NCBI RefSeq assembly: GCF_040436365.1 | Contig: NZ_AP026369.1 | Coordinates: 186,001 to 250,000, forward strand | Reading direction: 5' to 3' | Source: Hydrogenimonas sp. SS33 | GTDB lineage: Bacteria > Campylobacterota > Campylobacteria > Campylobacterales > Hydrogenimonadaceae | Length of the DNA stretch: 64,000 bases | Made by a program: the position numbers and the translations under genes | Notes under the pieces: model-generated | Seen by the model: only the letters and a program-made list of their open reading frames with translations | Told to the model about the DNA's origin: nothing | Database searches by the model: none | Shown: piece after piece, positions 2,051 to 17,980 of the stretch | Numbering within the stretch: the stretch's first letter is position 1 | Layout of the letters: each line of letters opens with the position of its first letter

Positions 2051-2052
2051 CC

Positions 2053-2904
2053 ATGAGAGAGATTCATTACGACGACATCGTATCCGCGGTCAAGAATATG
2101 GTCATCCATACGGCGACGAACCTGCCGGAGGATGCCCTGAACAAGCTCAAAGAGGCCCACGAAAAAGAGAAGAGCCCCGTCGCCAAGAAGGTGCTGGAGC
2201 AGCTTCTGGAGAATGCCGAAATCGCACGGGACGAGAAGCGCCCCCTCTGCCAGGATACGGGCCTGGCGGTCTACTTCGTCAAAGTGGGGCAGGATGTCCG
2301 CATCGTCGGCGGCCTCCTCAAAGACGCCATCAACGAAGGGACAGAAAAGGGGTACATCGAAGGGTATCTGCGCGCCTCCACCTGCGACTGCTTCACCCGG
2401 GAGAACCTGAAGGACAAAATCGGCTACAATCTGCCGGCCGTCATTCATATCGACCTGGTGGAAGGGGACAAGATCGACATCGAGTACGCGGCCAAGGGCG
2501 GCGGAAGCGAAAACGTCAGCCGCGCCCGCGTTCTCGCGCCCGCCCAGGGACGGGAAGGGGTCATCGACTTCGTCAAGAGCGTCATCTCCGAAGCGGGCCC
2601 CAACCCCTGTCCTCCGATCATCGTCGGCGTGGGCATCGGCGGTACCTTTGAAAAGGCGGCCATCTCCAGCAAGCATGCCCTTTTCCGCGAGGCGGGCCAG
2701 CCCAACCCCGATCCGGAGGTCGCCGAATTCGAAAAAGAGCTGCTCTACGAGCTCAACAAGCTGGGAATCGGCGCCATGGGTATGGGCGGTACGGAGACGG
2801 TGCTGGCGGTCCATGTGGAGAAGAACCCCTGCCACATCGCTTCCCTGCCGGTCAGCGTCAACGTCCAGTGCCACAGCAGCCGGCACAGCCATATCACCCT
2901 TTAA
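2053..2904 (+). CDS. Class I fumarate hydratase, alpha subunit
   Basis: This 283-residue protein is the alpha (N-terminal) subunit of the iron-sulfur class I fumarase/tartrate dehydratase family, which hydrates fumarate to malate. Conserved cysteine segments are visible: RPLCQDTGLAVYFV, ASTCDCFTREN and GPNPCPPIIVGVGIGG, which together supply the cluster ligands. The split alpha/beta arrangement with the next gene is typical of anaerobes and Campylobacterota. It starts 2 bp after the mdh stop and precedes the beta subunit by 9 bp, so the two subunits are surely co-translated. The [4Fe-4S] cluster would make the enzyme oxygen-sensitive. Confidence 0.95.
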   Translation: MREIHYDDIVSAVKNMVIHTATNLPEDALNKLKEAHEKEKSPVAKKVLEQLLENAEIARDEKRPLCQDTGLAVYFVKVGQDVRIVGGLLKDAINEGTEKGYIEGYLRASTCDCFTRENLKDKIGYNLPAVIHIDLVEGDKIDIEYAAKGGGSENVSRARVLAPAQGREGVIDFVKSVISEAGPNPCPPIIVGVGIGGTFEKAAISSKHALFREAGQPNPDPEVAEFEKELLYELNKLGIGAMGMGGTETVLAVHVEKNPCHIASLPVSVNVQCHSSRHSHITL

Positions 2905-2913
2905 GGATTAGCC

Positions 2914-3474
2914 ATGAGCCAAGTACACTACCTCGAAACACCTTTGACGGACGAAGATATCATGAACCTCAAAGCCGGGGATATCGTCTACCTCTCCGGC
3001 ACGATTTTCACGGCGCGCGACGCGGCCCATAAACGGTTGGTGGACCTGATCGAAAACAAGGAGGAGCTCCCCTTCCCGCTGCAGGGCGCCGTCATCTATT
3101 TCGTCGGGCCGACTCCGCCCAAACCGGGTGAACCCATCGGCAGCGCCGGGCCGACGACGAGCTACCGGATGGACAGCTATTCCCCCACGCTCATCAAGTA
3201 CGGCCTCAAGGGAATGATCGGAAAAGGGAAGCGGAACCAGGCGGTCAAGGATGCCTGCAAAGAGTACAAAGCGGTCTATTTCGGCGCCACCGGCGGTGCC
3301 GGCGCGCTTTTGGGCAAGCTCATCAAGGATGCAAAAGTGATCGCCTACGAAGAGCTGGGGCCCGAAGCGATCCGCATGCTGAAAGTGGAGAACTTCCCCG
3401 TCACCGTCATCAACGACGCCTACGGCAACGACCTCTACGAAGAGGGCCGCAAACAGTACGAAGTCAAAGACTGA
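2914..3474 (+). CDS. Class I fumarate hydratase, beta subunit
   Basis: The 186-residue protein is the beta (C-terminal) domain of class I fumarase, pairing with the upstream alpha subunit. The recognisable core is YFGATGGAGALLGKLIKDAK followed by AYEELGPEAIR and NDAYGNDLYEEG. The length fits the usual ~180-200 residues. It is preceded by AAGGATTAGCC and lies 9 bp after the alpha-subunit stop. Confidence 0.95.
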   Translation: MSQVHYLETPLTDEDIMNLKAGDIVYLSGTIFTARDAAHKRLVDLIENKEELPFPLQGAVIYFVGPTPPKPGEPIGSAGPTTSYRMDSYSPTLIKYGLKGMIGKGKRNQAVKDACKEYKAVYFGATGGAGALLGKLIKDAKVIAYEELGPEAIRMLKVENFPVTVINDAYGNDLYEEGRKQYEVKD

Positions 3475-3499
3475 GAAACCAACAAAGAAAGGATAGAGC

Positions 3500-4663
3500 A
3501 TGAATATACATGAATATCAGGCGAAAGAGATCTTCCGACAGTACGGCGTTCCCGTACCCCGCGGTCAGGTCGCCTTCACCGTCGACGAAGCGGTGGAAGC
3601 CGCCCGCAACCTGGGCGGTAACATCTGGGTCGTCAAAGCCCAGATCCACGCAGGCGGACGGGGCCTCGGCGGCGGCGTCAAGCTGGCAAAGTCCCTTGAT
3701 GAAGTCCGTGACTGGGCCGACAAGATCCTGGGCATGACCCTGGTGACCCACCAGACCGGTCCCGAAGGGAAACTGGTCCAGAAGGTCTACATCGAAGAGG
3801 GTGCCGATATCGCCAAGGAGTACTACCTGGGAATGCTCCTCGACCGTGCCGCGGAGATGCCGGTCATGATGGCCTCCACCGAAGGGGGAATGGAGATCGA
3901 GAAGGTGGCGGCCGAAACGCCGGAGAAGATCGTCAAGGTCCATATCGACCCCTCCGTCGGATTCCAGGGCTACCACGGCCGCGAGCTCGCTTTCGGCCTC
4001 GGCCTGGCGAAAGAGGAGATAGGCCCCTTCATCAAGTTCGCCAAAGCGCTCTATGAAGTCTATATGGACAAAGACGCCGAAATGATCGAGATCAACCCCC
4101 TCATCAAGACCGGCGACGGCAAATTCCTGGCGCTTGACGCCAAAATGGGCTTCGACGACAACGCCCTTGGCCGCCACCCCGACATTCTCGAAATGCGCGA
4201 CCTGAGCGAAGAGGAGCCCACGGAAGTGGAAGCCAAAGAGCACGGCCTCAGCTACGTCAAGCTCGACGGAAACGTAGGCTGTATGGTCAACGGCGCCGGC
4301 CTGGCGATGGCGACGATGGACATTATCAAACACGAAGGGGGCGAACCTGCCAACTTCCTCGACGTGGGCGGCGGGGCCAACCCCGAAACGGTCGCCAAGG
4401 GATTTGAGATCATCCTCAAAGACCCCAACGTCAAAGCAATCTTCGTCAACATTTTCGGCGGCATCGTACGCTGCGACCGTGTCGCCAACGGTATTCTTGA
4501 AGCGACGAAAATCACCGATGTCAACGTGCCCGTCGTGGTGCGCCTTGACGGAACCAATGCGGAAGAGGCGGCGGAGATTCTCAAAAACGCCGGTATCAAA
4601 AACATCATTTCTGCGACCGACCTCGCCGACGGTGCGAAAAAAGCGGTCGAAGCTGCGAAGTAA
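3500..4663 (+). CDS. sucC: Succinyl-CoA ligase, beta subunit
   Basis: The 387-residue protein is the ATP-grasp beta subunit of ADP/GDP-forming succinyl-CoA synthetase. It begins with the family-typical [18 protein letters not shown], has the ATP-grasp segment [12 protein letters not shown] and ends with [14 protein letters not shown] near the CoA-binding flavodoxin-like domain. It converts succinate plus CoA and ATP to succinyl-CoA in the reductive direction, or the reverse. It is 12 bp upstream of sucD and follows the fumarase genes. Confidence 0.97.
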
Positions 4664-4675
4664 AGGAGAAAGAGT

Positions 4676-5548
4676 ATGAGTATTCTGGTCAACAAAGATA
4701 CGAAAGTCATCGTCCAGGGATTTACCGGCAAAGAGGGGACTTTCCACGCTTCCCAGTGTATCGACTACGGTACCCAGATCGTCGGCGGCGTCACACCCGG
4801 CAAAGGAGGGCAGGAGCATCTCGGCAAACCGGTCTTCAACACCGTCCGGGAAGCGGTTGAGACGACGGGAGCCACGGTCTCCATGATCTTTGTTCCGCCG
4901 GCCTTCGTCGCCGACGCGGTCATGGAAGCGGCGGAAGCGGGCATCGAGCTGGCGGTCATCATTACCGAGGGGGCGCCCGTTCGGGACATGATGTACGCCA
5001 AAATGTACGCCACCAAGAAGGGAATGAGCACCATCGGCCCCAACTGCCCCGGTATCATCACCGCCGAAGAGTGCAAAATCGGCATCATGCCCGGCTTTAT
5101 CTTTAAAAAGGGTCCGGTGGGCCTCATCTCCAAATCGGGTACCCTCACCTACGAAGCCTCCAACCAGGTGGTCAAAGAGGGGCTGGGCATCACGACCGCC
5201 GTCGGTATCGGCGGCGACCCGATCATCGGGCTTAGCTACAAGCAGCTTCTGCCCATGTTCGAAGCCGACCCCGAAACTGAAGCGATCGTCATGATCGGCG
5301 AGATCGGCGGCGACCTGGAGATCCAGGCGGCGCAATTCATCAAGGAGAACATCACCAAGCCCGTCGTCGCCTTCATCGCGGGTCAGACGGCACCCAAAGG
5401 GAAACGGATGGGCCACGCCGGCGCCATCATCAGCGGCGGCAGCGGTACGGCGGCGGAGAAGATGGCGGCTCTGGAAGCGGCCGGTGTCAAAGTTGTCGTT
5501 TCGCCTGCGGACATCGGCAAAGCCGTCAAAGAAGTGATGGGGAAATAA
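4676..5548 (+). CDS. sucD: Succinyl-CoA ligase, alpha subunit
   Basis: The 290-residue alpha subunit carries the CoA-binding Rossmann domain at the N-terminus ([20 protein letters not shown]) and the phosphohistidine motif [10 protein letters not shown] near residue 246, the site of the phosphoryl intermediate. It forms the SucCD complex with the preceding gene. It is followed after 7 bp by a small metal-binding protein gene and then the kor genes, so succinyl-CoA made here can be passed to 2-oxoglutarate synthase. Confidence 0.97.
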
Positions 5549-5555
5549 GCGACCC

Positions 5556-5855
5556 GTGAAGAAGCGATTCGCCGTCGCCAACATCCGCTGCGAAGGGTGT
5601 GCCAATACGATTCGTAACGCCCTCTCCCAGCGGTTTGGCGACAGTGTGGAGGTCGATCTTGAGGCAGTGCCACGAATAGTAACAGTGGATCTGGCCGAGG
5701 AAGAGGATGAAGCCTTTTTTACGTCGACCTTAAGGAAGCTGGGTTATCCTCTAATCGACGATGAGACTTCAGGCATCGAAAGCGCCGTGATGAAAGGTAA
5801 GAGTTTCGTTTCGTGCGCCATAGGAAAATTCAACCCAACGAAGGAGAAGCAATGA
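5556..5855 (+). CDS. Small heavy-metal-associated (HMA) domain protein inside the rTCA operon
   Basis: The 99-residue product has an HMA-like ferredoxin fold signature: beta strand RFAVANI, then RCEGCANTI with the metal-binding pair Cys12 and Cys15, a helix, and a second strand IVTVDLAE. This is the copper-chaperone family pattern, although the usual GM before the first cysteine is replaced by IR. There is no signal peptide, so it should be cytoplasmic. The start is GTG 7 bp after sucD, and its stop overlaps the korD start (ATGA), which means co-translation with the oxidoreductase. A metal or iron-sulfur-related helper role for KorD/KorB is only a guess. The C-terminal 25 residues after the HMA fold look unstructured. 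Confidence 0.75.
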   Translation: MKKRFAVANIRCEGCANTIRNALSQRFGDSVEVDLEAVPRIVTVDLAEEEDEAFFTSTLRKLGYPLIDDETSGIESAVMKGKSFVSCAIGKFNPTKEKQ

Positions 5856-6169
5856 GTCTGATGAAAGCGCCGGAGAACACTCCGGTATGGACCGACGAGA
5901 GCCGATGCAAAGCGTGCGATATCTGTGTCGCCGTCTGCCCCGCAGGCGTTCTGGCGATGCGCTACGACCCCCATACCATTCTGGGGCAGATGATTACCGT
6001 CGTCGAGCCTGATGCCTGCATCGGGTGCAACGAGTGTGAACTCTCCTGTCCCGATTTCGCCATTTTCGTGGCGGACAAAAAAGAGTACAAATTCGCCAAA
6101 CTGACCGAGCAGGCGAAAGAGCGTGCGAAGAAGATCGCCGAAAACAACTATATGGTTCTCGGTGCCTAA
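5852..6169 (+). CDS. korD: 2-oxoglutarate:ferredoxin oxidoreductase, delta (ferredoxin-like) subunit
   Basis: The 105-residue protein has two CxxCxxCxxxC [4Fe-4S] motifs, at Cys19/22/25/29 (CKACDICVAVCP) and Cys56/59/62/66 (CIGCNECELSCP), and acts as the electron-transfer subunit of 2-oxoglutarate:ferredoxin oxidoreductase. I chose the ATG at 5852, preceded by AAGGAGAAGC, rather than an upstream in-frame start, because it gives the normal family N-terminus and a strong ribosome-binding site. It overlaps the HMA gene by 4 bp and is 15 bp ahead of korA. Confidence 0.95.
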   Translation: MSLMKAPENTPVWTDESRCKACDICVAVCPAGVLAMRYDPHTILGQMITVVEPDACIGCNECELSCPDFAIFVADKKEYKFAKLTEQAKERAKKIAENNYMVLGA

Positions 6170-6184
6170 CAAAGGAGAAAGAAT

Positions 6185-7324
6185 ATGAGTGACAAAAGAG
6201 AATTGATATCTTCCGGTAACGAACTTTCCGCCATCGCCGCGGTCGACGCCGGCTGTATGTTCTTCGGGGGGTATCCCATCACCCCGTCGAGTGAAATCAT
6301 GCACACCATCTCCGACCTGCTTCCCAAAGTGGGCGGTGCGGCGATCCAGATGGAAGATGAAATCGGCGGTATCTGTGCCGCCATCGGCGCATCCATGAGC
6401 GGTGTACGCGCCCTTACGGCGACATCCGGCCCCGGAATCTCCCTGAAAGCGGAGAACCTGGGTCTGGCCCAGATGGCGGAAGTGCCCCTGGTCGTCGTCA
6501 ACGTCATGCGCGGCGGCCCCTCCACCGGTCTGCCCACCCGTGTCTCCCAGGGGGATGTCGCCCAGGCGAAAAACCCGAGCCACGGTGACTACAAGTCGAT
6601 CACTCTGTGTGCCGGAAACCTCGCCGAGTGTTACACGGAAGTGGTCCGCGCCTTCAACCTGGCCGACCGTTTCATGCAGCCGGTCATCGTCCTGACCGAC
6701 GAAACCATCGGCCATATGCACGGCAAAGCGCTTCTGCCCAGCCTCGAAGAGGTCAAAGCCGGCATCAAACAGCGCAAGACTTTCGACGGTCCGCCGGAAG
6801 AGTACAAACCCTACGGCGTCGGTCCGGACGAGCCCGCGGTTTTGAACCCGATGTTCAAAGGGTACCGTTACCACTTCACCGGGCTCCATCACGACGCCGA
6901 CGGTTTCCCGACTGAAGAGATCGAAACCTGCCGCAAGCTGATCGACCGTCTTTTCCGCAAGGTAGACGCCCATCGTGACGAATTGGAGAGCAACGAAGAG
7001 TTCATGCTCGACGATGCCGACATTCTCTTCGTCGCCTACGGTTCCGCCTCTCTGGCGGCCAAAGAGGCGATTCTCGAACTGCGTGAGCAGGGGATCAAAG
7101 CGGGCCTTTTCCGCCCCATTACCCTCTGGCCGAGCCCGGAAGAGCGCCTCTATGAACTTGGACAGAAATTCGACAAGGTTCTCTCTATCGAACTGAACCA
7201 GGGACAGTATCTCGAAGAGATTCAGCGGGCGATGGGTCGCAAAGATATCCAGAAACTGACCAAAACCAACGGTCGTCCCTTCTCTCCGGCAGACATTATC
7301 AACAAAGTCAAGGAGGTATTCTAA
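6185..7324 (+). CDS. korA: 2-oxoglutarate:ferredoxin oxidoreductase, alpha subunit
   Basis: The 379-residue alpha subunit contains the pyrimidine-binding pyruvate:ferredoxin oxidoreductase domain I (FFGGYPITPSSEIMH, then QMEDEIGGICAAIGASMSG) and the transketolase-C-like domain II. With KorB, KorC and KorD it carboxylates succinyl-CoA to 2-oxoglutarate with reduced ferredoxin, a key CO2-fixing step of the reductive TCA cycle. It is called oorA in Campylobacter and Helicobacter. A strong AAAGGAGAAAG site precedes the ATG. Confidence 0.96.
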   Translation: MSDKRELISSGNELSAIAAVDAGCMFFGGYPITPSSEIMHTISDLLPKVGGAAIQMEDEIGGICAAIGASMSGVRALTATSGPGISLKAENLGLAQMAEVPLVVVNVMRGGPSTGLPTRVSQGDVAQAKNPSHGDYKSITLCAGNLAECYTEVVRAFNLADRFMQPVIVLTDETIGHMHGKALLPSLEEVKAGIKQRKTFDGPPEEYKPYGVGPDEPAVLNPMFKGYRYHFTGLHHDADGFPTEEIETCRKLIDRLFRKVDAHRDELESNEEFMLDDADILFVAYGSASLAAKEAILELREQGIKAGLFRPITLWPSPEERLYELGQKFDKVLSIELNQGQYLEEIQRAMGRKDIQKLTKTNGRPFSPADIINKVKEVF

Positions 7325-7325
7325 T

Positions 7326-8192
7326 ATGGCTTTCAATTACGATGAATATTTGCGCGTCAACAAGATGCCGACACTCTGGTGCTGGGGATGCGGTGACGGC
7401 GTGATTCTGAAGGCGTTCATCCGCGCCATGGACAAACTCGGCATCAGCAAGGACGACATGTGTGTCGTCTCCGGTATCGGCTGTTCCGGCCGCTTCTCCT
7501 CCTATATCGACGTCAACACGGTCCACACGACCCACGGGCGTACCATCGCCTATGCCACCGGTATCAAACTGGCCAACCCCGACAAACATGTCGTCTGTGT
7601 CGCCGGTGACGGCGACGCCCTGGCGATCGGGGGGAACCATACCATCCACGGCTGCCGACGTAATATCGACATCACGTTGATTCTCATCAACAACTTCATC
7701 TACGGTCTGACCAACTCCCAGACCTCTCCCACCACGCCGCAGGGGATGTGGACGGTTACGATGAAGAAAGGTAACATCGACCCGACCTTCGATGCCTGCA
7801 AACTGGCCGAAGCGGCCGGCGCCTCTTTCGTCGCCCGCGAAAAGGTAACCGAACCCCGAAAGCTGGAAAAAGTTTTCGTGGAAGCGCTGAAACACAAAGG
7901 CTTCTCCTTCGTTGATGTCTTCTCCAACTGCCACATCAACCTGGGCCGCAAGAACAAGATGCAATCCGCCATGGAGAACCTGGATTGGATCGATCAGATT
8001 TCTATGTCAAAAAAGAAGTGGGAAAAGCTGCCTGACGAAGAGAAAGACAAATATTTCCCCACCGGTATCCTGAAACAGGACAACGAAGTGGAAGAGTATA
8101 CAAACCTCTATCAGAAGCTCAAAGATATCTATCAGGGCAAACGTGGGCCTCTGACGCCGGAAGATTTCAAAAAATCGAGCAGTGAAGGATAA
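7326..8192 (+). CDS. korB: 2-oxoglutarate:ferredoxin oxidoreductase, beta subunit (TPP-binding)
   Basis: The 288-residue beta subunit binds thiamine diphosphate and Mg2+ through the GDGDALAIGGNH segment (about residues 93-104), followed by NNFIYGLTNSQTSPTTPQG. Cysteines near the N-terminus (LWCWGCGDG) and at GIGCSG fit the extra [4Fe-4S] cluster of this family. It starts 1 bp after korA and precedes korC by 3 bp. Confidence 0.96.
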   Translation: MAFNYDEYLRVNKMPTLWCWGCGDGVILKAFIRAMDKLGISKDDMCVVSGIGCSGRFSSYIDVNTVHTTHGRTIAYATGIKLANPDKHVVCVAGDGDALAIGGNHTIHGCRRNIDITLILINNFIYGLTNSQTSPTTPQGMWTVTMKKGNIDPTFDACKLAEAAGASFVAREKVTEPRKLEKVFVEALKHKGFSFVDVFSNCHINLGRKNKMQSAMENLDWIDQISMSKKKWEKLPDEEKDKYFPTGILKQDNEVEEYTNLYQKLKDIYQGKRGPLTPEDFKKSSSEG

Positions 8193-8195
8193 GCG

Positions 8196-8768
8196 ATGAG
8201 TAGAATTGTCATGCGATTTACCGGGGTCGGCGGACAGGGCGTCCTGCTGGCCGGTGAGATTTTCGCCGCGGCGAAAATCAAAATGGGCGGCTACGGTGTC
8301 AAAACCGCAACCTACACATCTCAGGTACGGGGCGGCCCGACCGTCGTCGATATCCAGCTTGATGACAAGGAGATCTGGTACCCCTATGCCATCGACGGGC
8401 AGATCGACTTTATGCTTTCCGTCGCCGACAAGAGTTTCCAGCTCTTCAAGAACGGGGTGCGCGAAGGCGGTACCATCGTCATAGACCCCAACCTGGTCTA
8501 TCCGAAAGACGAAGACTATGCCAAGTGGAACATCTATGAGATTCCGATCATCACGATCGCCAAGGAAGAGGTCGGAAACGTCATCACCCAGAGCGTCGTG
8601 GCACTGGCCATCGCCAACACCTTCACCAAGGCGCTTCCCGAAGATATCCTGATCGAAACGATGCTCAGCAAAGTTCCGAAAAAGGTTCACGAAGCGAACC
8701 TCAAAGCCTATGAACTCGGTAAAAAATATGCCGAAGAGGCTATCGCCAAAGGGCCTGTGAAGAAGTGA
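8196..8768 (+). CDS. korC: 2-oxoglutarate:ferredoxin oxidoreductase, gamma subunit
   Basis: The 190-residue gamma subunit has the family's N-terminal RFTGVGGQGVLLAGEI and TSQVRGGPTVVDIQ segments that close the CoA-binding region of the complex. It is the last gene of the mdh-kor run. The next 270 bp hold a dispersed repeat copy and then a separate promoter. Confidence 0.96.
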   Translation: MSRIVMRFTGVGGQGVLLAGEIFAAAKIKMGGYGVKTATYTSQVRGGPTVVDIQLDDKEIWYPYAIDGQIDFMLSVADKSFQLFKNGVREGGTIVIDPNLVYPKDEDYAKWNIYEIPIITIAKEEVGNVITQSVVALAIANTFTKALPEDILIETMLSKVPKKVHEANLKAYELGKKYAEEAIAKGPVKK

Positions 8769-8814
8769 TCTTCTTTTTATCAGCGGCGCATCCCGTCGCC
8801 GCCGATACTTTACA

Positions 8815-8936
8815 ACTGACGTTATGCATTTTGCATAACGTCTTCTCGAAATCTTTGATTTCGTAGCTTTAGGGGGGGTGCAGGGGACGGCCAGTCCCCG
8901 CCAAAACATGGGCTTTGCTCATGTTTTGCGTAACTT
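8815..8936. repeat. Dispersed hairpin repeat, copy A
   Basis: This is a member of an intergenic repeat family seen at least six times in the window. Order of parts: outer palindrome GTTATGCATTTTGCATAAC, segment CTCGAAATCTTTGATTTCG (itself an inverted repeat), AGCTTTAGGGGGGG, hairpin GGGGACGGCCAGTCCCC, hairpin CATGGGCTTTGCTCATG and the terminal arm TTTTGCGTAAC. It follows korC and precedes the promoter of the next gene. It has no coding capacity. Confidence 0.85.
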
Positions 8937-8994
8937 TGAAATTGAATTCTTTTCTCTATTTTCCCCATATCAAAACCTTCCGACCTCTTTTTGT

Positions 8995-9000
8995 TATAAT
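8995..9000 (+). promoter_or_regulatory. -10 box for the molybdopterin oxidoreductase gene
   Basis: TATAAT preceded by a T-rich stretch lies 38 bp upstream of the next start codon. No good -35 hexamer is visible, which is common in Campylobacterota, where an AT-rich upstream region substitutes for it. Confidence 0.5.
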
Positions 9001-9038
9001 CTTTCAAACCTTGAAAAACCCGCAATTTGGGAGATTGA

Positions 9039-10841
9039 ATGATACGCACCGCCTGTCCCCTCGACTGTTACGATGCCTGTGCCGTCACCTGTGACCCGGC
9101 CCATCCCCACAAGCCCATCGCCACCCAGGGGCACCCCATGTCCAACGGCGCCCTCTGCGCCATGCTCAACCGTTATATGCACGAAATGCCCCGCATCGAA
9201 AAACCGAGAGTCGACGGCAAAGAGGTCTCCATGGAAGAGGCGCTGGATGCCGTTGCGGCATCATTGAAAGGGAAAAAGTCGCTGCTTTGGCGGGGTTCCG
9301 GGAACCTGGGCGTCATGCAGAGCGTTACCAACCTGCTGATGGAAAAGACGGGCGGGTGGCTCACCCATGGAAGCCTCTGCGACGCGGCGGGCCAGGCGGG
9401 CATCGAAGCGGGGAGGGGGCTCAACCGTGTGCTGCCACCGGAGCAGATCGCCAAGGCGGATGTCGTGGTCGTCTGGGGGCGCAACCTGACGGTGACCAAC
9501 GCCCATCTGATGCCCTTCATCGAGGGGAAAAAGCTGGTGGTCATCGACCCGGTCAAAACCCCCATCGCCAAAAAGGCGGACCTTCACATTCAGCTCAAGC
9601 CCCGCACCGATTTCTACCTGGCGGTGATGCTGGCGCGCTTCAACATCATGGAGGATGCCCAGAACGACGAATGGCTGGAGTCGATGGAGATGGAGATCGA
9701 CGATTTCTACGACTTTACCCGGAGTTTTCGCATCAAGGCCATTCTGGAGTTCATGGGGCTTGGCCTCGACCAGATGGGGGATCTTTTGCTGCTGCTTCAG
9801 CAGCCCAGGGTGGTCTACCTGGTGGGGGCCGGGGTTCAGAAGTACAGCATCGGCCATTACGTGCTGCAGGCCATCGACTCCCTGGCGGCGACCCTGGGGC
9901 ATTTTGGAAAGGAGGGGTGCGGCGTCAGTTTCCTGGGCAACAGCCGGCTGGGTTTCGACGATCCTTTCAGGGTGAAAACCAAAACCGTCTCCATCGTCAC
10001 CACCCCTTTCGAGGAATTCGACACCGTCATCGTCCAGGGCGGCAACCCCGCCGCTTCCATGCCCAACACGTCCCGGGTCATCACCTCTTTGAAAGAGGTG
10101 GAAAACCTGGTCTATTTCGGCCTCTACGAAAACGAAACCAGCGAACTGGCACGCATCGTCCTGCCCGCCAAAAGTTTTCTGGAGAAGGAGGATATCCGCC
10201 TCAGTTACGGCCACCAGTACGTGATGCGGATGAACAAGGTCGTCGACAGCGACATCGGCATCAGCGAGTACGATTTCACGAAAAAGATGTTCGAGAAGCT
10301 GGGTTTCGACGGGCTCGAGAGCGAATCGGCCTACCTGCAGCGGTGGCTCGACCAGTGCGAGAGGGAGGAGGAAACCCACATCTCCCCCGCCTATGAAGAG
10401 ATTCCCTATGCCGAAGGGTTCAGGGAGGATGGGGACGAACCTTTCGAATTCATCGACGATTTCGACGACGATTTCGAAGATATCAAACCGCTTAGAAAAT
10501 TCAGAAAGAAGGGGGTAAAAGAGGAGGAGGGGATCTACCGTTTCCTCACCCCCAAATCTCCCCACTCCCTCAACACCCAGTTCAGGCGGGACGACAGGGT
10601 CTATCTGCACCCCTCGCTGGGGTACAGAGACGGGGAGCGGGTCATCGTCTATTCGGAGGTCGGAGAGCACGCCTTCAGGGTCGAAACCACGGAGAAGCTC
10701 CGCCCCGACTGCGTGCTCATCCATGCCGGTACCTACGGCGTCAATTACCTCACCCCGGATATCGAGAGCGAAGAGGGGGACAATGCCTGCTTTCAGGAGA
10801 TCAAGGTGAAGATCCGTCGTGAAACAGAGCATAGAGATTAA
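9039..10841 (+). CDS. Molybdopterin-dependent oxidoreductase, catalytic subunit, unknown substrate
   Basis: The 600-residue protein is a stand-alone member of the DMSO-reductase superfamily. An N-terminal [4Fe-4S] motif is complete (Cys6, Cys10, Cys14, Cys40; CPLDCYDAC). Middle regions such as VVVWGRNLTVTNAHLMPFI and VIVQGGNPAASMPN are the molybdopterin guanine dinucleotide-binding pattern. The C-terminal dinucleotide-binding barrel includes YLHPSLGYRDGERVIVY. No twin-arginine signal is present, so it is cytoplasmic. At 600 residues it is shorter than formate dehydrogenase or nitrate reductase. A very acidic linker (FEFIDDFDDDFEDIK, around residue 470) interrupts the fold before the last domain. 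There are no electron-transfer subunits beside it, so the substrate cannot be called. Confidence 0.85.
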   Translation: MIRTACPLDCYDACAVTCDPAHPHKPIATQGHPMSNGALCAMLNRYMHEMPRIEKPRVDGKEVSMEEALDAVAASLKGKKSLLWRGSGNLGVMQSVTNLLMEKTGGWLTHGSLCDAAGQAGIEAGRGLNRVLPPEQIAKADVVVVWGRNLTVTNAHLMPFIEGKKLVVIDPVKTPIAKKADLHIQLKPRTDFYLAVMLARFNIMEDAQNDEWLESMEMEIDDFYDFTRSFRIKAILEFMGLGLDQMGDLLLLLQQPRVVYLVGAGVQKYSIGHYVLQAIDSLAATLGHFGKEGCGVSFLGNSRLGFDDPFRVKTKTVSIVTTPFEEFDTVIVQGGNPAASMPNTSRVITSLKEVENLVYFGLYENETSELARIVLPAKSFLEKEDIRLSYGHQYVMRMNKVVDSDIGISEYDFTKKMFEKLGFDGLESESAYLQRWLDQCEREEETHISPAYEEIPYAEGFREDGDEPFEFIDDFDDDFEDIKPLRKFRKKGVKEEEGIYRFLTPKSPHSLNTQFRRDDRVYLHPSLGYRDGERVIVYSEVGEHAFRVETTEKLRPDCVLIHAGTYGVNYLTPDIESEEGDNACFQEIKVKIRRETEHRD

Positions 10842-10861
10842 GAAAAATTTAAAAATTATGC

Positions 10862-10867
10862 TATAAT
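10862..10867 (+). promoter_or_regulatory. -10 box of rnpB
   Basis: TATAAT ends 5 bp before the first paired base of RNase P RNA helix P1 at 10873, the right distance for transcription to begin at the mature 5' end. The preceding 25 bp are almost all A/T. Confidence 0.65.
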
Positions 10868-10872
10868 AGCGC

Positions 10873-11319
<447 letters not shown>

Positions 11320-11425
11320 ATTGTCCATCTCCTCGAAAAACTTCAATCAATATTTTTGAACAAATAATCTTGTTTTAATTTGTCATACTTTATACTCTTT
11401 TTTATATCCCATTCAAGGAAAGATC

Positions 11426-12175
11426 ATGAAAAAAGGCATCGCACTCTTTTTCGCCACGGCATTCGCCACCTCCGTCGCCATGGCGGGACACCATACCATC
11501 CACTGGGGTTACAGCGGCCACGGCGGCCCCGAGCACTGGGGTGAACTCTCCGATGACTTCAAAATGTGTATGATCGGCAGGAACCAGTCCCCCATCGACA
11601 TCCGCACCGACACCGCCTACCAGACCAAACTGCCGGCGATCGGGTTCGACTACCATACCCCCACCAAAGATGTGGTGGACAACGGCCACACCGAGCAGGT
11701 GGATATCGAAGCCGGCAGCGGTATCACGATCGACGGCATCAGGTTCGAACTGAAGCAGTTCCACTTCCATACCCCCAGCGAAAACCGCATCGACGGCAAA
11801 TCCTTCCCCCTGGAAGCCCACTTCGTCCATGCCGACGAGCACGGCAACCTGGCGGTCGTGGCGCTGATGTTCAAATATGGCAAAACCAACCCGGTTTTGG
11901 CGAAAATCTGGAACAAAATGCCCAAACATGCGGGCAAAAAACATCATCTGACCATGACGGCGGAAGATGTCCAGCACCTTCTTCCCAAAAACAGGGCCTA
12001 CTACCGCTTCAACGGCTCCCTGACGACGCCTCCCTGTTCCGAAGGGGTGCGATGGTTTGTTCTGAAGCACCCGGTCACCGTCTCCAAAGCCCAGGTACGC
12101 AAATTCGCGCGCATCCTCGGCTTTGCCAACAACCGGCCGGTGCAGCCGATCAACGCCCGCGTTATTCTCAAGTAG
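11426..12175 (+). CDS. Alpha-type carbonic anhydrase, periplasmic
   Basis: The 249-residue protein has a signal peptide (MKKGIALFFATAFATSVAMA, cleavage expected after residue 20) and the alpha-carbonic anhydrase fold. Zinc ligands are His113, His115 and His132 in QFHFHTPSEN and EAHFVH. The conserved NQSPIDI and TTPPCSEGVRW segments are present. It hydrates CO2 to bicarbonate in the periplasm, which suits an autotroph that fixes CO2 by the reductive TCA cycle. AAGGAAAGATC precedes the ATG. A small gene follows after 3 bp, probably co-transcribed. Confidence 0.95.
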   Translation: MKKGIALFFATAFATSVAMAGHHTIHWGYSGHGGPEHWGELSDDFKMCMIGRNQSPIDIRTDTAYQTKLPAIGFDYHTPTKDVVDNGHTEQVDIEAGSGITIDGIRFELKQFHFHTPSENRIDGKSFPLEAHFVHADEHGNLAVVALMFKYGKTNPVLAKIWNKMPKHAGKKHHLTMTAEDVQHLLPKNRAYYRFNGSLTTPPCSEGVRWFVLKHPVTVSKAQVRKFARILGFANNRPVQPINARVILK

Positions 12176-12178
12176 GAT

Positions 12179-12415
12179 ATGCGAGACCCCTTCGATATCC
12201 CTTCACGCAAAGCGGTGCGGCGGAAACCCTTCCGCCCCCGCTGCAAGACCTGCCGCACCAATAAACATATCATTCCCATCGTCTACAGTGTCGACATTTC
12301 CGAAGAGCTTTTCGAAAAAGAGGCGAAGGGTGAACTGAAGATCGGCGGCAACTGCCGCAGTGTAGATGCGCCCAACTGGTACTGTACCTGTTGCGGGGGA
12401 AGCTTTTTGCGGTAA
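12179..12415 (+). CDS. Small zinc-ribbon-like protein, unknown function
   Basis: The 78-residue protein has paired cysteines CKTC (22, 25) and, near the C-terminus, a cysteine cluster CTCC (69, 71, 72) plus Cys59, a pattern that could bind one zinc ion. It has no signal peptide or membrane segment. The basic N-terminus (RKAVRRKPFRPR) suggests nucleic-acid contact, which is inference. It starts 3 bp after the carbonic anhydrase stop. I do not recognise the family. Confidence 0.6.
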   Translation: MRDPFDIPSRKAVRRKPFRPRCKTCRTNKHIIPIVYSVDISEELFEKEAKGELKIGGNCRSVDAPNWYCTCCGGSFLR

Positions 12416-12417
12416 AT

Positions 12418-12523
12418 TGTTGGTCGTTGGTCGTTGGGGCGCGTTGATAACGATTTTCATAACTACCAATGTTGCGCAAAATAAGAGCGAAGGCTATACC
12501 CCGCTATACTTTACCAACGACCA
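12418..12523. repeat. Heptamer tandem repeat (TTGGTCG) with inverted copy downstream
   Basis: Between the two convergent genes TTGGTCG is repeated (TTGGTCGTTGGTCGTTGG, 12420-12437), and ACCAACGACCA at 12513-12523 is its reverse complement. The two can pair to form a long-range hairpin. GTTGCGCAAA at 12471-12480 resembles the arm of the dispersed repeat. Nothing else is seen in the gap. Confidence 0.55.
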
Positions 12524-12532
12524 CTCACTTTT

Positions 12533-14098
12533 TCACAAAAACTCTTTTCTCAGCGCCTCTTTGTCGATCTCTTGGCTATGGAGCGATTTGCGGGGCATGT
12601 CGGGGCGGTAGACAATCTGCCCCGGGAGCATGTAGTGGGGAAGGTGTTTTTTTAGCTCGAAAAGGATCTCGTTTTTCGGAATCTCCCGCTTCCCGCCATA
12701 GACCATGACGATCTCCTCCTCGATCTCTTCGTCGGGCACCGAAAAGACGGCGCATTCGGTGATTTCGGGGATATATTTGTAGACGACGCTCTCGATCTCG
12801 AAGGGGCTGACGCGGAAGCCTCTGGTTTTGATCATGTCGTCTTTCCGGCAGACGAAGTAGATGTACCCCTCTTCGTCGGCATAGACGTAATCGCCGCTGG
12901 CGACGACGATTTCGTCGGTCAGGTGGCCTTCTGGGGCGATTACTTTGTCGAGGGTGTGGATGCTTTTGAAGCGAAGCGCCGTCTCTTCGGGGGCGTTCCA
13001 GTAGCCCCGGTAGATGCACGCGCCCCGGTGGATCAGTTCGCCCACCTCCCTGGGTTTGCACGCTTCGCCCCGCTCGTTGACGATGTAGAGTTCCACGTCT
13101 GGTACCGCCTTGCCGATGGAGTCGGGGCGGATGTGGATCTGCGACGGGTCCAGGTAGGCCGAGCGGAAGGCTTCGCTAAGCCCGTGCATCGAGTAGAAGG
13201 CGGCGTCGGGGAAGTGGGTCGTGACGTTTTTGATCATCAGCGGGGTCAGGTTGCCGCCGGAGGAGGTGACGGCCCGCAGCCGTTTGAAGTGTTCCGGCTT
13301 GGGGATGCGGTGGGGGTCTTCGTCGAACATCCGGGTAATGTGGATCGGCATCAGCGGCAGCACCGTCACTTCGTCGTCGATGAGGTGGGCGAAGAAGTCG
13401 GCGGGGAGAACGAAGCGGTGGATAGCCAGGGTCGCGCGGTTGTAGAGGGCGTTGAAGATCTGGTTGAGGCCGTAGTCGAGGTTGAAGGAGAGGATGCCGC
13501 TGATGACATCCTCTTCGCCGAGGTGCAGGTATTTGGAGACGATGGCGGCACCGTCGAAAAAGGCGCGGTGGTCGATGACAACGCCCCTGGGGTTGCCCGT
13601 GGAGGCGAAGGTGTAGGTGATGGCCGCCAGGTCGTGGCCCTTGATGTCGCACTCGACGGTTCCTCTGTGGCACTTGAGGATCTCTTCGAAAGAGACGTCG
13701 GCTTCCTGTGAAGGGGTGTAGGTGACGATGGGGCCGGTAAATCCCGCCTCTTTGACGGTGGCGATCTTTTTGACCCCCGTGATCATCAGCGCGATGCCGG
13801 CATCTTCGATGATGTGTTTGACCTGTTCGGGTTTGAGCAGCCGCGTGATGGGCACGAAGACGTAGGGGGTGGACATCACCGCGAGAATAGCAACGACTTG
13901 GTCGCAGCTCTTGGCGGAGTAGATGCCGATGCGGCTGCCGGCGGGAAGGTTCTGCGCACGCAGGAAGAGGGCGATGCTGTCGACTTTTTCCAGAAGTTCT
14001 TGGTAGGTGTAGGTGACGCTGCCTTCATTGAGGGCGATTTTGTCGCCGTGGGTGGCGGCGGCCTTTTCGAGCAGTTCTCTGACGGTATTGACGGTCAT
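12533..14098 (-). CDS. AMP-forming acyl/aminoacyl ligase in a glutamate mutase operon
   Basis: The 521-residue protein belongs to the ANL (acyl-CoA synthetase/adenylation domain) superfamily. Visible motifs are the P-loop ITYTFASTGNPRG (about residues 160-175, with Arg in place of the usual Lys), the A5-like YSMHGLSEAF, the A7-like SGDYVYADEEGYIYFVCRKDD and the hinge motif IKTRGFRVSPFEIE. The A10 motif, normally PRTxxGKID, reads PRKSLHSQEID, so the lysine that catalyses adenylation is missing or displaced. There is no carrier-protein domain. It is the last gene of a four-gene operon and overlaps the preceding MutL gene by 4 bp. It probably activates, or once activated, a carboxylate related to the mutase product. 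The substrate is unknown. Confidence 0.85.
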   Translation of the reverse strand: MTVNTVRELLEKAAATHGDKIALNEGSVTYTYQELLEKVDSIALFLRAQNLPAGSRIGIYSAKSCDQVVAILAVMSTPYVFVPITRLLKPEQVKHIIEDAGIALMITGVKKIATVKEAGFTGPIVTYTPSQEADVSFEEILKCHRGTVECDIKGHDLAAITYTFASTGNPRGVVIDHRAFFDGAAIVSKYLHLGEEDVISGILSFNLDYGLNQIFNALYNRATLAIHRFVLPADFFAHLIDDEVTVLPLMPIHITRMFDEDPHRIPKPEHFKRLRAVTSSGGNLTPLMIKNVTTHFPDAAFYSMHGLSEAFRSAYLDPSQIHIRPDSIGKAVPDVELYIVNERGEACKPREVGELIHRGACIYRGYWNAPEETALRFKSIHTLDKVIAPEGHLTDEIVVASGDYVYADEEGYIYFVCRKDDMIKTRGFRVSPFEIESVVYKYIPEITECAVFSVPDEEIEEEIVMVYGGKREIPKNEILFELKKHLPHYMLPGQIVYRPDMPRKSLHSQEIDKEALRKEFL

Positions 14099-15291
14099 GG
14101 TCTCTCCTTTGCGCTCACCGCTTCCATTCCGTAGGTCCAGATTTCGTAGTCGTGGTCGAGCACCAGCTGGGGAATCTGGTGGAAATGGAGCAGTTTTTTG
14201 TAGAAGAAGCGCAGTATCGCTTCCGCATCCTCTTCGTCCAGTACTTTGGTGATGCCGCCCGTGAGGACGATGCTGTTGAGGTTTTCGAGTTTGAGCTCCA
14301 CATACTCGCCGTGGTGGCGGGAGACTTTGTAGAGCACCAGGAAGATGGCCAGCTGCATCAGCACCCTCGTCGCCTCTTCGCTCTGTTTTTCCAAAATATC
14401 CTCCGTCACACCCAGGTACTCCAGCAGTTCGAAGACATATTCGTTCTGTCTTGCCGTGTGGATAAGACTTTCGCGGGACTTGTAGACACCGAGCTTCTTG
14501 AAGACGAGACGGTCGTAGCCCCCTTCGCCGGTGATGTTGTCGCTCACCAGGTCGCGGCTGTAGTGGATATCGGTCGTCGCGCCCCCGATGTCGATGACGA
14601 TAAAGGGGTCGGCCACATCCAGTTTTTGGGAGATGGCAGGAAGCGCCTGGTTGACGATGTAGGGGGTCGAGAAGATCTGGTTGGCGGTGATGTCGTAGAG
14701 CCGCTTGATCTCCTCTTTGCCCATGATGTCGGCCTGGTAGAGGTCGGTGAGGTAGGTTTTGAGCCCCTTGTCCCTCATCTTCAGCTTCCCGTCGACGATA
14801 TTGTCGAGAATGACGACATTTTCGATGGCCTCTTTGACGAAATCGATGTCGGCATCGCTTCCGACGTAGACGATGTTGCTGTAGTCGACTTGGCGCAGGA
14901 AAGCGGCCGTTTCGGGGCCGAAGAACCCCGCCACCCCGTCGATGCCCCCGACCAGGATCACCACATCCACCTGCTCTTTTGGGGGTGTCGCCTCGGCAAG
15001 GCGCGGCAGCAGCACCGTGTCGATGATGTTGATGCCCGAATTGAAGGCGATGTTGACGGCGTATTTGAGGCTGAAAGATTCACTGAGCCCCAGAATGAGG
15101 GTGCTGAGCCCGCCGTTGGCGGAGCTGCAGATGAAGATATTCTCCGGCGTGTGCCGGGCGACGAGGCCGCCGCATTTGTCCATCAAGTCGTCATGGATGG
15201 GGCGGGTGAAGTCCCTGAACCAGTGGCGGACCCTACCGTTTTCCATCACCTTGAAATAGGTGCTTCCGATATCGAGCATCAGCGGATTCAT
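14095..15291 (-). CDS. glmL: Glutamate mutase-associated MutL/GlmL protein (ASKHA ATPase)
   Basis: The 398-residue protein has the phosphate-1 motif LDIGSTYFKV at residues 5-14 and a second nucleotide motif VIDIGGATTDIH, typical of the ASKHA-fold MutL proteins encoded between glutamate mutase sigma and epsilon genes. By analogy with diol dehydratase reactivases, it is thought to recharge or chaperone the cobalamin enzyme. I chose the start MNPLMLDIGS, which overlaps the epsilon gene stop by 4 bp. A longer upstream frame is a shadow of the epsilon gene. It is somewhat shorter than clostridial MutL (~460 residues). Confidence 0.88.
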   Translation of the reverse strand: MNPLMLDIGSTYFKVMENGRVRHWFRDFTRPIHDDLMDKCGGLVARHTPENIFICSSANGGLSTLILGLSESFSLKYAVNIAFNSGINIIDTVLLPRLAEATPPKEQVDVVILVGGIDGVAGFFGPETAAFLRQVDYSNIVYVGSDADIDFVKEAIENVVILDNIVDGKLKMRDKGLKTYLTDLYQADIMGKEEIKRLYDITANQIFSTPYIVNQALPAISQKLDVADPFIVIDIGGATTDIHYSRDLVSDNITGEGGYDRLVFKKLGVYKSRESLIHTARQNEYVFELLEYLGVTEDILEKQSEEATRVLMQLAIFLVLYKVSRHHGEYVELKLENLNSIVLTGGITKVLDEEDAEAILRFFYKKLLHFHQIPQLVLDHDYEIWTYGMEAVSAKERP

Positions 15292-16649
15292 TGCATGATC
15301 CCTATGTCTTTGATGATCTTCTCCACCACCGTCTCGCCAGGTTGGAGGCGGATTTTGCTCTTTTCGTAGGCGAAACTCTCGTCGCTGATGGGAAGCTTCC
15401 CCCTCTCCAGGATGCGGATATTCTCCTGGGGGTCGCGGATGGTGATCACTTCGTTGGCGTTGATGACGTGGGGGGAGAAGGGGATCTCGATATGCCCCTT
15501 TTTGATGGCGTTGAAGACTTTGCGCCAAAGGGTGTCGGCCCCGTCGTTGAGGACCGCTTCCATGATCTCCCTGACCATCCGCTCCAGGTGGGCCTCCTCC
15601 TCTTCGTCCTCGACGGGGGGAATGCCCTTGAGCATCCCCAGGGTGTACTGCACGCTGGCGACGGCCCGGGCGTTGGCCTCCTTGGTGGGGATGCCGAAAG
15701 CTTCGTCACGGGTCTTGACGATGATCTTGTCGGCGCCCACCATGGCGGCGATGACGGTGGAGGTGGTAATGAGAGCGTCGGAAAACTCCTTGTTCCGGGG
15801 GAAAGCCCCCATCCACTGGTGGTATACCAGGTGGATCGACGCGTCGGTGTGGCCGAAGCGGTCGGCGTATTCGCGGGCCAGTTTGCGCAACACCTTCGCC
15901 GTCACCACATCCTGGATCATCGAGCCGCTCTGAGAGAAACTGACGGAAAAGGACTTGACCCCCTCTTCCAGGGAGAGCAGCATCTCCACCAGTTGGATGA
16001 CGATGACGATGGCCGGGGGCTGGAGCGTGGCGCTGAGCGGCCCGAAGGATTCCCTGTTGATCGGTTCGTTGAAGGCCGAGTAGTGGGCGCAGACCCGCTC
16101 CACATATTTCCAGTAGAGGAAGGCCTTGTCCAGGGGGAAGTTCTTGGAGTAGGGGAGCAGGTAGGTGATGGGGCCGCCCTCGATCTCGAAGATGCCGCTG
16201 GCGATGGCCACCTCCACCAGCAGCCTGGCGTCGGGCGTGCCGTGGCGCAGGCTCACTGGGGTGTTGAAGTGGGTCATCATCCTGCGGGTCGTGCGGTAGC
16301 CGTGGATGATGAGGGGGTAGCCGTTGAGCATGTCCACGTCGTTCTCTTCGCTGAGAATGAGCATCTTCTTGGCGGTGGCGTAATCGTTGAGGCGGGTGTT
16401 GGAGTCGATGGTCAGGGGCAGCACGTCCACGCCGGCGGCGGTGAACTCCTCATAGAGCTTCCACACCTTTTCGAAGGTGGGAAAACCGCCGCGGGGCTGC
16501 ACCAGCATCTTGTCGCGGGTTTTGAAGTGGTGGGAGATGAAGAGGTTCTTGTCGGCGTTTTTGACGAAATCTTCGATCTCTTCGAAGTCGAAGCGGTCTA
16601 CATACTCGTTGCGGGTGATGATGGCCCGCTCCCTTTGAAAGAGGCTCAT
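15288..16649 (-). CDS. glmE: Glutamate mutase epsilon (catalytic) subunit
   Basis: The 453-residue protein is the TIM-barrel epsilon subunit of adenosylcobalamin-dependent glutamate mutase, which interconverts L-glutamate and threo-3-methylaspartate. Segments matching the characterised clostridial enzyme are VQPRGGF (Arg53), LNGYPLIIHGYRTTRR, RHGTPD (Arg135, His136) and EIEGGPITYLLPYSK (Glu157, Tyr163, Tyr167). These correspond to the substrate-binding arginines, the catalytic glutamate and the tyrosines of the known structure, so an active mutase is likely. Overlaps of 4 bp with both neighbours indicate translational coupling. It is about 30 residues shorter than clostridial GlmE, mainly at the termini. 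Confidence 0.9.
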   Translation of the reverse strand: MSLFQRERAIITRNEYVDRFDFEEIEDFVKNADKNLFISHHFKTRDKMLVQPRGGFPTFEKVWKLYEEFTAAGVDVLPLTIDSNTRLNDYATAKKMLILSEENDVDMLNGYPLIIHGYRTTRRMMTHFNTPVSLRHGTPDARLLVEVAIASGIFEIEGGPITYLLPYSKNFPLDKAFLYWKYVERVCAHYSAFNEPINRESFGPLSATLQPPAIVIVIQLVEMLLSLEEGVKSFSVSFSQSGSMIQDVVTAKVLRKLAREYADRFGHTDASIHLVYHQWMGAFPRNKEFSDALITTSTVIAAMVGADKIIVKTRDEAFGIPTKEANARAVASVQYTLGMLKGIPPVEDEEEEAHLERMVREIMEAVLNDGADTLWRKVFNAIKKGHIEIPFSPHVINANEVITIRDPQENIRILERGKLPISDESFAYEKSKIRLQPGETVVEKIIKDIGIMQ

Positions 16650-17056
16650 GAGACCCGCTCTTTCAGACGCGCCTGCACTTCGTCAAGCGATGCATTGATG
16701 TCCTTCTGGTGGTAGACCAGGTCGAAGCCGAAGTTTTTGAATTTGGGGACGATCTCCTCTTCCTTCACTTCGCCCACCGCCAGATTGCCCCCGATGACGA
16801 AGAGGGGGTCTTTGCGGAAACGGTAATTCTGCCGCAGAATCTTCAGGTCGCGGCACCATCCCTCGGCCTCCCCGTTGAGGGAGGAGATGAGAAGTACGTC
16901 CGCATCCGTTTCGAGCATGGCGTCTAAAAACTCCTCCAGGTAGGTGTTGACCCCCAGGTTGTAGACAGTAAAACCCCGCTCTTTCAAAGAGATTTCGATA
17001 AGCCGGTTGGCGACGACGTGAATGTCATTGCCAACGACGCCGGTGACCACTTTCAT
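16646..17056 (-). CDS. glmS: Glutamate mutase sigma (cobalamin-binding) subunit, variant motif
   Basis: The 136-residue protein is the B12-binding Rossmann-like sigma subunit. The lower axial ligand His13 lies in DIHVVAN (Asp11, His13), where the consensus DxHxxG has Ala16 instead of Gly. The second element SSLNGEAE replaces the usual SSLYGQGE, and the third, VIGGNLAVGE, is conserved. It pairs with the epsilon subunit encoded next and opens the four-gene operon. This glmS is unrelated to the glucosamine-synthase gene of the same name. Upstream (17057-17160) a weak TAGAAT can be read on the minus strand; no cobalamin riboswitch is seen. Confidence 0.88.
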   Translation of the reverse strand: MKVVTGVVGNDIHVVANRLIEISLKERGFTVYNLGVNTYLEEFLDAMLETDADVLLISSLNGEAEGWCRDLKILRQNYRFRKDPLFVIGGNLAVGEVKEEEIVPKFKNFGFDLVYHQKDINASLDEVQARLKERVS

Positions 17057-17162: not shown

Positions 17163-17435
17163 ATGATGGAAAAGCTGCTGGTTATCGGTGCACTTGCCCT
17201 CTTTGTTTTCGGGTTTTTGATCTGGTCGGCTTTGATGCAGAAAAAGGCCCTGAAATCCCAGCAAAATGCCATCGAAGTCCAGGCCGAGGCGAATGAAAGG
17301 GAAAAGAAAATGGAGGCCTATATGGAGGAGATGGTGCGATTGAACAGGGAACAGCTCGAAGTTTTGAATAGGATAAATGCGGGACTGGGTGATGTAAGGA
17401 AAGTGTTGGACGGAAAATCCGAAACCTCTCGATAG
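17163..17435 (+). CDS. Small single-pass membrane protein with coiled-coil tail
   Basis: The 90-residue product has one membrane helix at about residues 5-25 (LLVIGALALFVFGFLIWSAL), then a charged, heptad-like region (KKALKSQQNAIEVQAEANER onward) likely to form a coiled coil. No family is recognised. It is followed 44 bp later by the rraA-like gene, and GCGTAACACCACTCGAA at 17452-17468 resembles part of the dispersed repeat arm. Confidence 0.65.
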   Translation: MMEKLLVIGALALFVFGFLIWSALMQKKALKSQQNAIEVQAEANEREKKMEAYMEEMVRLNREQLEVLNRINAGLGDVRKVLDGKSETSR

Positions 17436-17479: not shown

Positions 17480-17980
17480 ATGAAATTCTACACGGCCGAC
17501 ATTTGCGACGAACTGCAGGATGAGGTGCAGGTTTTCGAGCCCGTTTTCAAACCCTATGGCGGGGTGGAGGCGGCTTTCGGGCCCATACGCACGCTCAGGC
17601 TGGAGCGTAATAACACGGAACTCATCGCCATGCTCAAGGAGCCCGGGAACGACGCCTTTTTGGTGGTGGATGTCGCTGCCGAATATTGGGCCGTCGTGGG
17701 GGAGAATCTGATGAAGCTAGCCCACCACAACGGCTGGGCCGGCATCCTGGTCAACGGCTACGTCCGCGACATTCATGTCACCCAAACCGTGCCGGTGGGG
17801 CTCTGGGCACTGGGGACCTGTCCGCGCAAGAGTTTCGAGCATAACCCCGCCGAGCGCGGCGTGCCGCTCAGTTTCGGCGGTGTGGAGCTGAAAGAGGGGG
17901 AGTGGCTTCTTGCCGACCGCGACGGGGTCATCGTTGTGACGGACGAGGCGATGGAGCGGCTGCAGGAGAAACTTTTTTAG
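17480..17980 (+). CDS. rraA: RraA-family protein
   Basis: The 166-residue protein begins TADICDELQDEVQVFEPVF and contains NGWAGILVNGYVRDI and FGGVELKEGEWLLADRDGVIV, the RraA/HMG aldolase-like fold signature. In Escherichia coli RraA inhibits RNase E; related proteins are class II aldolases. Campylobacterota generally rely on RNases Y and J (rny lies at 38.7 kb here), so an RNase E partner is doubtful, and an aldolase or other role is equally possible. RBS GAAAAGG lies upstream of the ATG. Confidence 0.85.
   Translation: MKFYTADICDELQDEVQVFEPVFKPYGGVEAAFGPIRTLRLERNNTELIAMLKEPGNDAFLVVDVAAEYWAVVGENLMKLAHHNGWAGILVNGYVRDIHVTQTVPVGLWALGTCPRKSFEHNPAERGVPLSFGGVELKEGEWLLADRDGVIVVTDEAMERLQEKLF

Follow-up and report, generated by a model that had tools for sequence, protein, structure and literature searches.

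A conserved glutamate mutase module of Campylobacterota with a ligase-like protein and an RraA-like partner

In the genome of Hydrogenimonas sp. SS33 (2.25 Mb, single contig), we analyzed a stretch of 64,000 nucleotides (contig NZ_AP026369.1, positions 186,001 to 250,000; hereafter the window), in which the genes encoding the two subunits of a glutamate mutase, a MutL-type protein, and a ligase-like protein of the ANL superfamily form one run on the minus strand. Together with a divergently transcribed RraA-like gene, they form a conserved module, an undescribed variant in the use of glutamate mutase, an enzyme known from the fermentation of glutamate, from the haloarchaeal methylaspartate cycle, and from actinomycete antibiotics. 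The original prediction, made from the letters of the window, described a four-gene operon. The four genes are real, and their coordinates and families (PF06368, PF13941, PF02310 with 44 bits plus NF002612, and PF00501) agree with that description, but it was incomplete, as the RraA-like gene had been left out. The five genes are as follows:

16646..17056, minus strand: sigma (S) subunit of glutamate mutase, cobamide-binding; 136 amino acids (aa); NF002612, 150 bits (cut-off 110); PDB 1be1, E 1.1e-20
15288..16649, minus strand: epsilon (E) subunit of glutamate mutase; 453 aa; PF06368, 386 bits; PDB 6h9e, E 2.1e-83
14095..15291, minus strand: MutL/GlmL-type ASKHA protein; 398 aa; PF13941, 97-98 bits
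12533..14098, minus strand: free-standing ANL-superfamily ligase-like protein; 521 aa; PF00501, 199.5 bits; VinN-like pocket, eroded A3 and A10 motifs
17480..17980, plus strand: RraA-like protein, divergent module partner; 166 aa; PF03737, 120 bits; NF006875, 145.7 bits (cut-off 136)

The four minus-strand genes are consecutive, with an ATGA overlap of 4 bp at every junction; that between epsilon and MutL presumes an ATG start of MutL at 15291 instead of the upstream TTG given in the list of open reading frames (ORFs). A 90-aa ORF without a Pfam match (17163-17435, plus strand) separates sigma from the RraA-like gene, and the corresponding gap in Sulfurospirillum holds another short gene. No cobalamin riboswitch match was returned by an Rfam scan around the operon in four loci, and a search for a conserved regulatory motif upstream of sigma yielded nothing beyond AT-rich words and a possible −10-like GATAAAAT.

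The distribution of the module was analyzed in 397 genomes of the class (Campylobacterota). The epsilon gene was found in 57 of them, about one in seven. An ortholog of the ligase gene was present in 56 of these 57 genomes vs. none of the 340 mutase-negative ones, and the RraA-like gene in all 57 vs. 15 of the 340 (Fisher tests, P < 1e-50, relatedness ignored; the pattern was seen again in 20 of 68 genera). The joint conservation of the four genes, for which the original prediction had suggested a search, is far beyond chance, and the RraA-like gene is a fifth member of the module. It lies no more than 10 kb from the mutase in 44 of the 57 genomes, and there it is always upstream and divergent. 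In the other 13 it is located elsewhere; the 11 matches that could be read all belong to a subfamily with the signature NG[YF][VI]RD and are 41-57% identical to the RraA-like protein of the window. Since three genomes that lack the mutase, all from family f7, also have this subfamily, the RraA-like protein can stand alone.

Gene neighborhoods were compared in 80 related loci from named genomes and 30 further loci from class members. The order sigma-epsilon-MutL-ligase was kept in most of them, the exceptions being an insertion between epsilon and MutL in some copies from metagenome-assembled genomes (MAGs) and early contig ends in others. The inserted genes (encoding a LysM protein, a sensor kinase-like protein, and others) split sigma-epsilon from MutL-ligase in loci L013, L054, L062, L067, L069, and L071, and MutL and the ligase are still adjacent in most loci with such insertions. 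Clustering of the neighbors placed an RraA-like gene in 45 of the 72 loci of at least 6 kb, divergent to sigma wherever the two adjoin. No widely recurring neighbor was found downstream of the ligase gene in the loci examined. Some copies of the module have response-regulator and kinase genes nearby, which are members of large common families. Purifying selection acts on sigma, epsilon, MutL, and the ligase, whose ratios of nonsynonymous to synonymous substitution rates (dN/dS) are about 0.01-0.10 between close pairs.

In the PDB, sigma and epsilon are most closely related to solved subunits of glutamate mutases. The epsilon positions equivalent to GlmE R66, R100, R149, H150, E171, Y177, Y181, K326, and E330 are identical to those of GlmE and invariant in 107 sequences. 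Apart from H150, these are substrate-binding arginines and catalytic residues of the clostridial enzyme, in which the set serves substrate and cofactor binding. In sigma, the cobamide motif reads DxHxxA and not DxHxxG in all sequences listed from an alignment of 109, with Asp and His kept and Ala replacing Gly. Gly occupies the last position in catabolic sigma subunits and Asn in one Streptomyces and one Methylobacter homolog; because homologs vary there, DxHxxA is a signature of the clade rather than proof of a lost His ligand or lost cofactor binding. A cobamide adenosyltransferase (CobA family, 192 bits) is encoded in the genome. The intact epsilon active site and this adenosyltransferase point to the conversion of glutamate to 3-methylaspartate as the likely reaction. 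Mutase chemistry is thus a well-supported prediction: sigma and epsilon would form an adenosyl-cobamide glutamate mutase converting L-glutamate to (2S,3S)-3-methylaspartate, and MutL would keep it active by ATP-driven reactivation, as active-site conservation and knowledge of the families suggest.

This mutase differs from those of catabolic loci (Prevotella, an E. coli plasmid, and Rhizobium sullae), with which it shares sigma, epsilon, MutL/GlmL, and the mutase active-site motifs. It is about 37% identical to the catabolic type vs. about 30% to Streptomyces plasmid mutases. Sigma and epsilon score 95.6 and 368.9 bits against the equivalog models TIGR01501 and TIGR01503 (cut-offs 135.8 and 390.1), and MutL scores 70 bits against the GlmL profile (cut-off 475). 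The plasmid copies of the catabolic loci are ordered S-L-E-methylaspartase, whereas the module is ordered S-E-L without methylaspartase. It also has DxHxxA in place of DxHxxG, a shorter MutL (398 aa vs. 461-467 aa for catabolic GlmL), and the ligase and RraA-like genes instead of the downstream catabolic genes.

The absence of methylaspartase, and of a dedicated carrier or nonribosomal peptide synthetase (NRPS) partner, was in line with the original prediction. PF07476 yielded only partial matches of the enolase superfamily, with at most 49 bits across the 397 genomes and at most 40 bits in the genome of the window, and no methylaspartase was found elsewhere in that genome. With no full-length enzyme among the 397 genomes, the methylaspartase-mesaconate route was rejected. 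The genome of the window encodes a single PP-binding protein, the acyl carrier protein (ACP) of fatty-acid synthesis, located between fabG- and fabF-like genes; as this is its only carrier, no NRPS or polyketide synthase (PKS) acceptor is available there, and for this genome that route was also rejected. A single PP-binding match was likewise found in 5 of 16 mutase-positive genomes checked. Neither an ACP nor a pyridoxal phosphate (PLP) decarboxylase adjoins the module in the loci that were inspected, no genome-wide search for PLP decarboxylases having been made. In the absence of methylaspartase and a dedicated carrier, cleavage of the product to mesaconate and its transfer to an NRPS or PKS are both unlikely, and the module probably feeds a short, undescribed pathway.

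We tentatively favor a carrier-free, five-gene 3-methylaspartate module, in which the mutase would make 3-methylaspartate, the ligase would activate it, and the RraA-like protein would act in the same pathway. The ANL protein would bind 3-methylaspartate in a pocket for beta-amino acids resembling that of VinN, and is assumed to activate it for a general acceptor, such as coenzyme A (CoA), the fatty-acid ACP, or an amine, with no dedicated carrier. The RraA-like protein may act on an intermediate or product of this pathway and not as a regulator of RNase E.

The ligand is suggested by the substrate pocket. The AlphaFold model of the ligase-like protein (predicted local distance difference test score, pLDDT, 85.5; predicted template modeling score, pTM, 0.85) matches ANL structures. 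A PDB fold search with this model returned ANL proteins in general, without VinN standing out, whereas VinN was the sole PDB match in a separate search with the substrate-pocket region alone. In vicenistatin biosynthesis in Streptomyces, VinH/VinI is the glutamate mutase, and the free-standing ligase VinN transfers 3-methylaspartate to the carrier VinL (PMC11284099). Among the VinN pocket residues D230, F231, S299, K330, and R331 (PMC11253843), D230, F231, S299, and R331 correspond to D208, Y209, S280, and R312 of the window ligase, each invariant in 60 ligases, and the loop is ungapped. 3-Methylaspartate is thus moderately supported as the ligand of the ligase.

Several observations weigh against the carrier-free module. 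VinN K330 corresponds to F311 in the window ligase. R312 and the short loop are also present in exosortase-type ligases, one of which has the Asp-Tyr pair too, so that the specificity signal of the pocket is only partial. The P-loop signature for binding adenosine monophosphate (AMP), motif A3, was found in none of the 60 ligases; 29 of them have the A10 lysine at its usual position, 14 have it shifted by one residue, and 17, the window ligase among them, lack it. Because these two ATP-handling motifs are eroded, adenylation, which the original prediction took as given, is an assumption. The acceptor and the reaction of the RraA-like protein are likewise conjectural.

The same losses are consistent with a ligase-like protein that no longer adenylates but binds 3-methylaspartate (and perhaps a nucleotide) and serves the mutase as a sensor, a chaperone, or a non-ATP enzyme; the module would then put out 3-methylaspartate in free form, which could be a solute or signal. 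The AMP-binding signature is present in all four exosortase-type relatives, the A10 lysine was lost repeatedly, and conservation reaches 95-97% in the pocket and A4-A6 vs. 73% in A3 and 57% in A10; the lack of a carrier other than the fatty-acid ACP would also fit. However, E309 (A5), D403 (A7), and R418, K424, and R429 (A8) are invariant in the family, and half of its members have the A10 lysine in place. The missing signature alone is not decisive either, because one genuine-looking ligase of a Streptomyces cluster fails it as well. We therefore consider a non-adenylating protein unlikely. The ligase is under strong purifying selection: a dN/dS of about 0.03-0.08 in close pairs rules out a pseudogene and indicates that the protein is functional and not decaying.

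The pairing of a mutase with a free-standing ligase, contrasted with known loci in the original prediction, is present here but is not new in itself, since it is known from vicenistatin VinH/VinI and VinN (PMC11284099). In how it works, the module may come closest to the first half of vicenistatin biosynthesis minus carrier and decarboxylase, but by the tests made it is no member of that system, nor does it agree with the catabolic, Streptomyces-plasmid, or exosortase-type arrangements. Both have a glutamate mutase and a free-standing ANL ligase with the shared pocket residues (Tyr here replacing F231) and ungapped loop. In contrast, the VinL ACP and VinO decarboxylase of vicenistatin have no counterpart here as a dedicated ACP or adjacent PLP decarboxylase, and the RraA-like partner and the eroded A3 and A10 motifs set the module apart.

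On the precedent of VinH/VinI and VinN, the module could be a remnant of, or an input to, a conventional natural-product pathway, the ligase loading 3-methylaspartate on a carrier encoded elsewhere, as VinN does on VinL. A Streptomyces plasmid on which genes for a mutase, an ACP, and an AMP-binding protein adjoin is compatible with this explanation, as is the relationship of the ligase to exosortase-type ligases found with an ACP and a PLP decarboxylase. It nevertheless appears improbable, given the single PP-binding protein of the genome and of 5 of the 16 module genomes, and the lack of an adjoining ACP or PLP decarboxylase in the loci examined. The Streptomyces plasmid (Streptomyces sp. NBC_01216, positions 6507-14065 of locus L121) carries an unusual cluster, in which genes for a lantibiotic dehydratase and an ATP-grasp protein also accompany those for the mutase, ACP, and AMP-binding protein. 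The best NCBIfam match of the window ligase is TIGR03098 (acyl-CoA ligase, exosortase A system-associated), with 442.8 bits, below the cut-off of 592.35. Annotated members of this family (Aureimonas, Sinorhizobium, and Sphingomonas) are among its top plasmid homologs, at about 33-36% identity, and the TEAFRS loop is common to both. In TIGR03098-type ligases, both the AMP-binding signature and the A10 lysine are retained, and their genes accompany those of a PLP decarboxylase and an ACP; none of this applies to the window ligase.

The RraA-like partner belongs to the RraA/HMG-CHA aldolase fold family, with which it shares the invariant Arg-Asp pair R96 D97. It differs in its NG[YF][VI]RD signature and in the missing acid of the RDx2E/D motif, a third metal-binding position of HMG/CHA-type class II aldolases, which was absent from all 16 aligned RraA-like sequences. 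No PF10150 match (RNase E/G) was found in the genome, and RNase Y is encoded within the window; as the genome has no RNase E/G, a role as regulator of RNase E was ruled out. RraA-fold aldolases decarboxylate oxaloacetate, a metal motif is kept in most homologs, with an alternative one also described, and the role of RraA/HMG aldolase homologs in organisms without RNase E is an open question (PMC5065237).

This oxaloacetate decarboxylase activity, the obligate association of the RraA-like protein with the mutase, an aminotransferase-like gene adjoining it in four gammaproteobacterial loci, and the lack of a citramalate synthase match above its cut-off in the genome would suit a salvage or anaplerotic route, in which 3-methylaspartate is transaminated to 3-methyloxaloacetate and the RraA-like protein decarboxylates the latter, the resulting 2-oxobutyrate supplying isoleucine or propionyl units, but this is the least probable alternative, because threonine ammonia-lyase (ilvA, 526.7 bits) makes a second isoleucine source needless, the RraA-like family lacks the RDx2E/D acid, the aminotransferase gene is unlinked in Campylobacterota, and the ligase would be left without a role. 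3-Methylaspartate as an isoleucine precursor was likewise held unlikely, ilvA being present.

The descent of the module was traced with epsilon. The window copy is nearest to those of Hydrogenimonas MAGs (87% identity). In the epsilon tree, the module family forms one clade apart from the catabolic and Streptomyces-type mutases (support 99, with long outgroup branches). Copies from gammaproteobacteria, including marine carriers such as HTCC2143 and a Vibrio, nest inside Campylobacterota, beside the Malaciobacter/Arcobacter group (Arcobacteraceae), and their loci also hold the remaining module genes, with the RraA-like gene adjacent in most. This nesting of a complete module indicates lateral transfer between Campylobacterota and marine gammaproteobacteria, the spread beyond Campylobacterota being known from samples only. 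The presence of the module in HTCC2143 and the Vibrio does not point to a link with the reductive tricarboxylic acid cycle. In locus L073, the epsilon of a MAG named Sulfurimonas groups with the gammaproteobacterial copies, by lateral transfer or a binning error.

Other plasmids suggest further arrangements. In Methylobacter sp. YRD-M1 (locus L123, 2898-8258), genes for asparagine synthetase A, a B12-binding protein, a 505-aa hypothetical protein, an epsilon-like mutase, and an EamA transporter lie in a row, possibly for a methylasparagine-type product and thus another undescribed use of glutamate mutase. In Roseibium aggregatum (locus L124, 639-8069), an amino acid adenylation protein, an aromatic amino acid lyase, a long methylaspartate mutase subunit E of 664 aa, and an amino acid racemase are encoded adjacently. 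Elsewhere in the window, class A bacterial RNase P RNA (RF00010, 263 bits) was detected at 10873-11323 on the plus strand, with predicted ORFs overlapping it on both strands, and central-metabolism genes for malate dehydrogenase, fumarase, a succinyl-CoA ligase-type ATP-grasp protein, and 2-oxoacid:ferredoxin oxidoreductase subunits occupy 1094-8768.

A full-text literature search, whose coverage left out most subscription papers, returned no paper linking these mutase names with Epsilonproteobacteria or Arcobacter. The bolder proposal of a new carrier-free pathway, in which a monophyletic mutase clade, an ANL protein without ATP-handling motifs but with a 3-methylaspartate pocket, and an obligate RraA-like enzyme would lead from glutamate to an undescribed 3-methylaspartate-derived metabolite, is possible but somewhat doubtful. 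One monophyletic mutase clade is inherited with two constant non-mutase partners and without methylaspartase or a dedicated carrier. If the carrier-free reading is true, common bacteria of vents, sediments, and seawater would have an unrecognized use of 3-methylaspartate. The ANL protein would provide an example in which substrate recognition is conserved and ATP handling is not, and the RraA subfamily would gain a testable function, the role of RraA without RNase E having been raised previously (PMC5065237). Cultured carriers of the module, including Sulfurospirillum cavolei, S. diekertiae, and Malaciobacter halophilus, render this reading testable.

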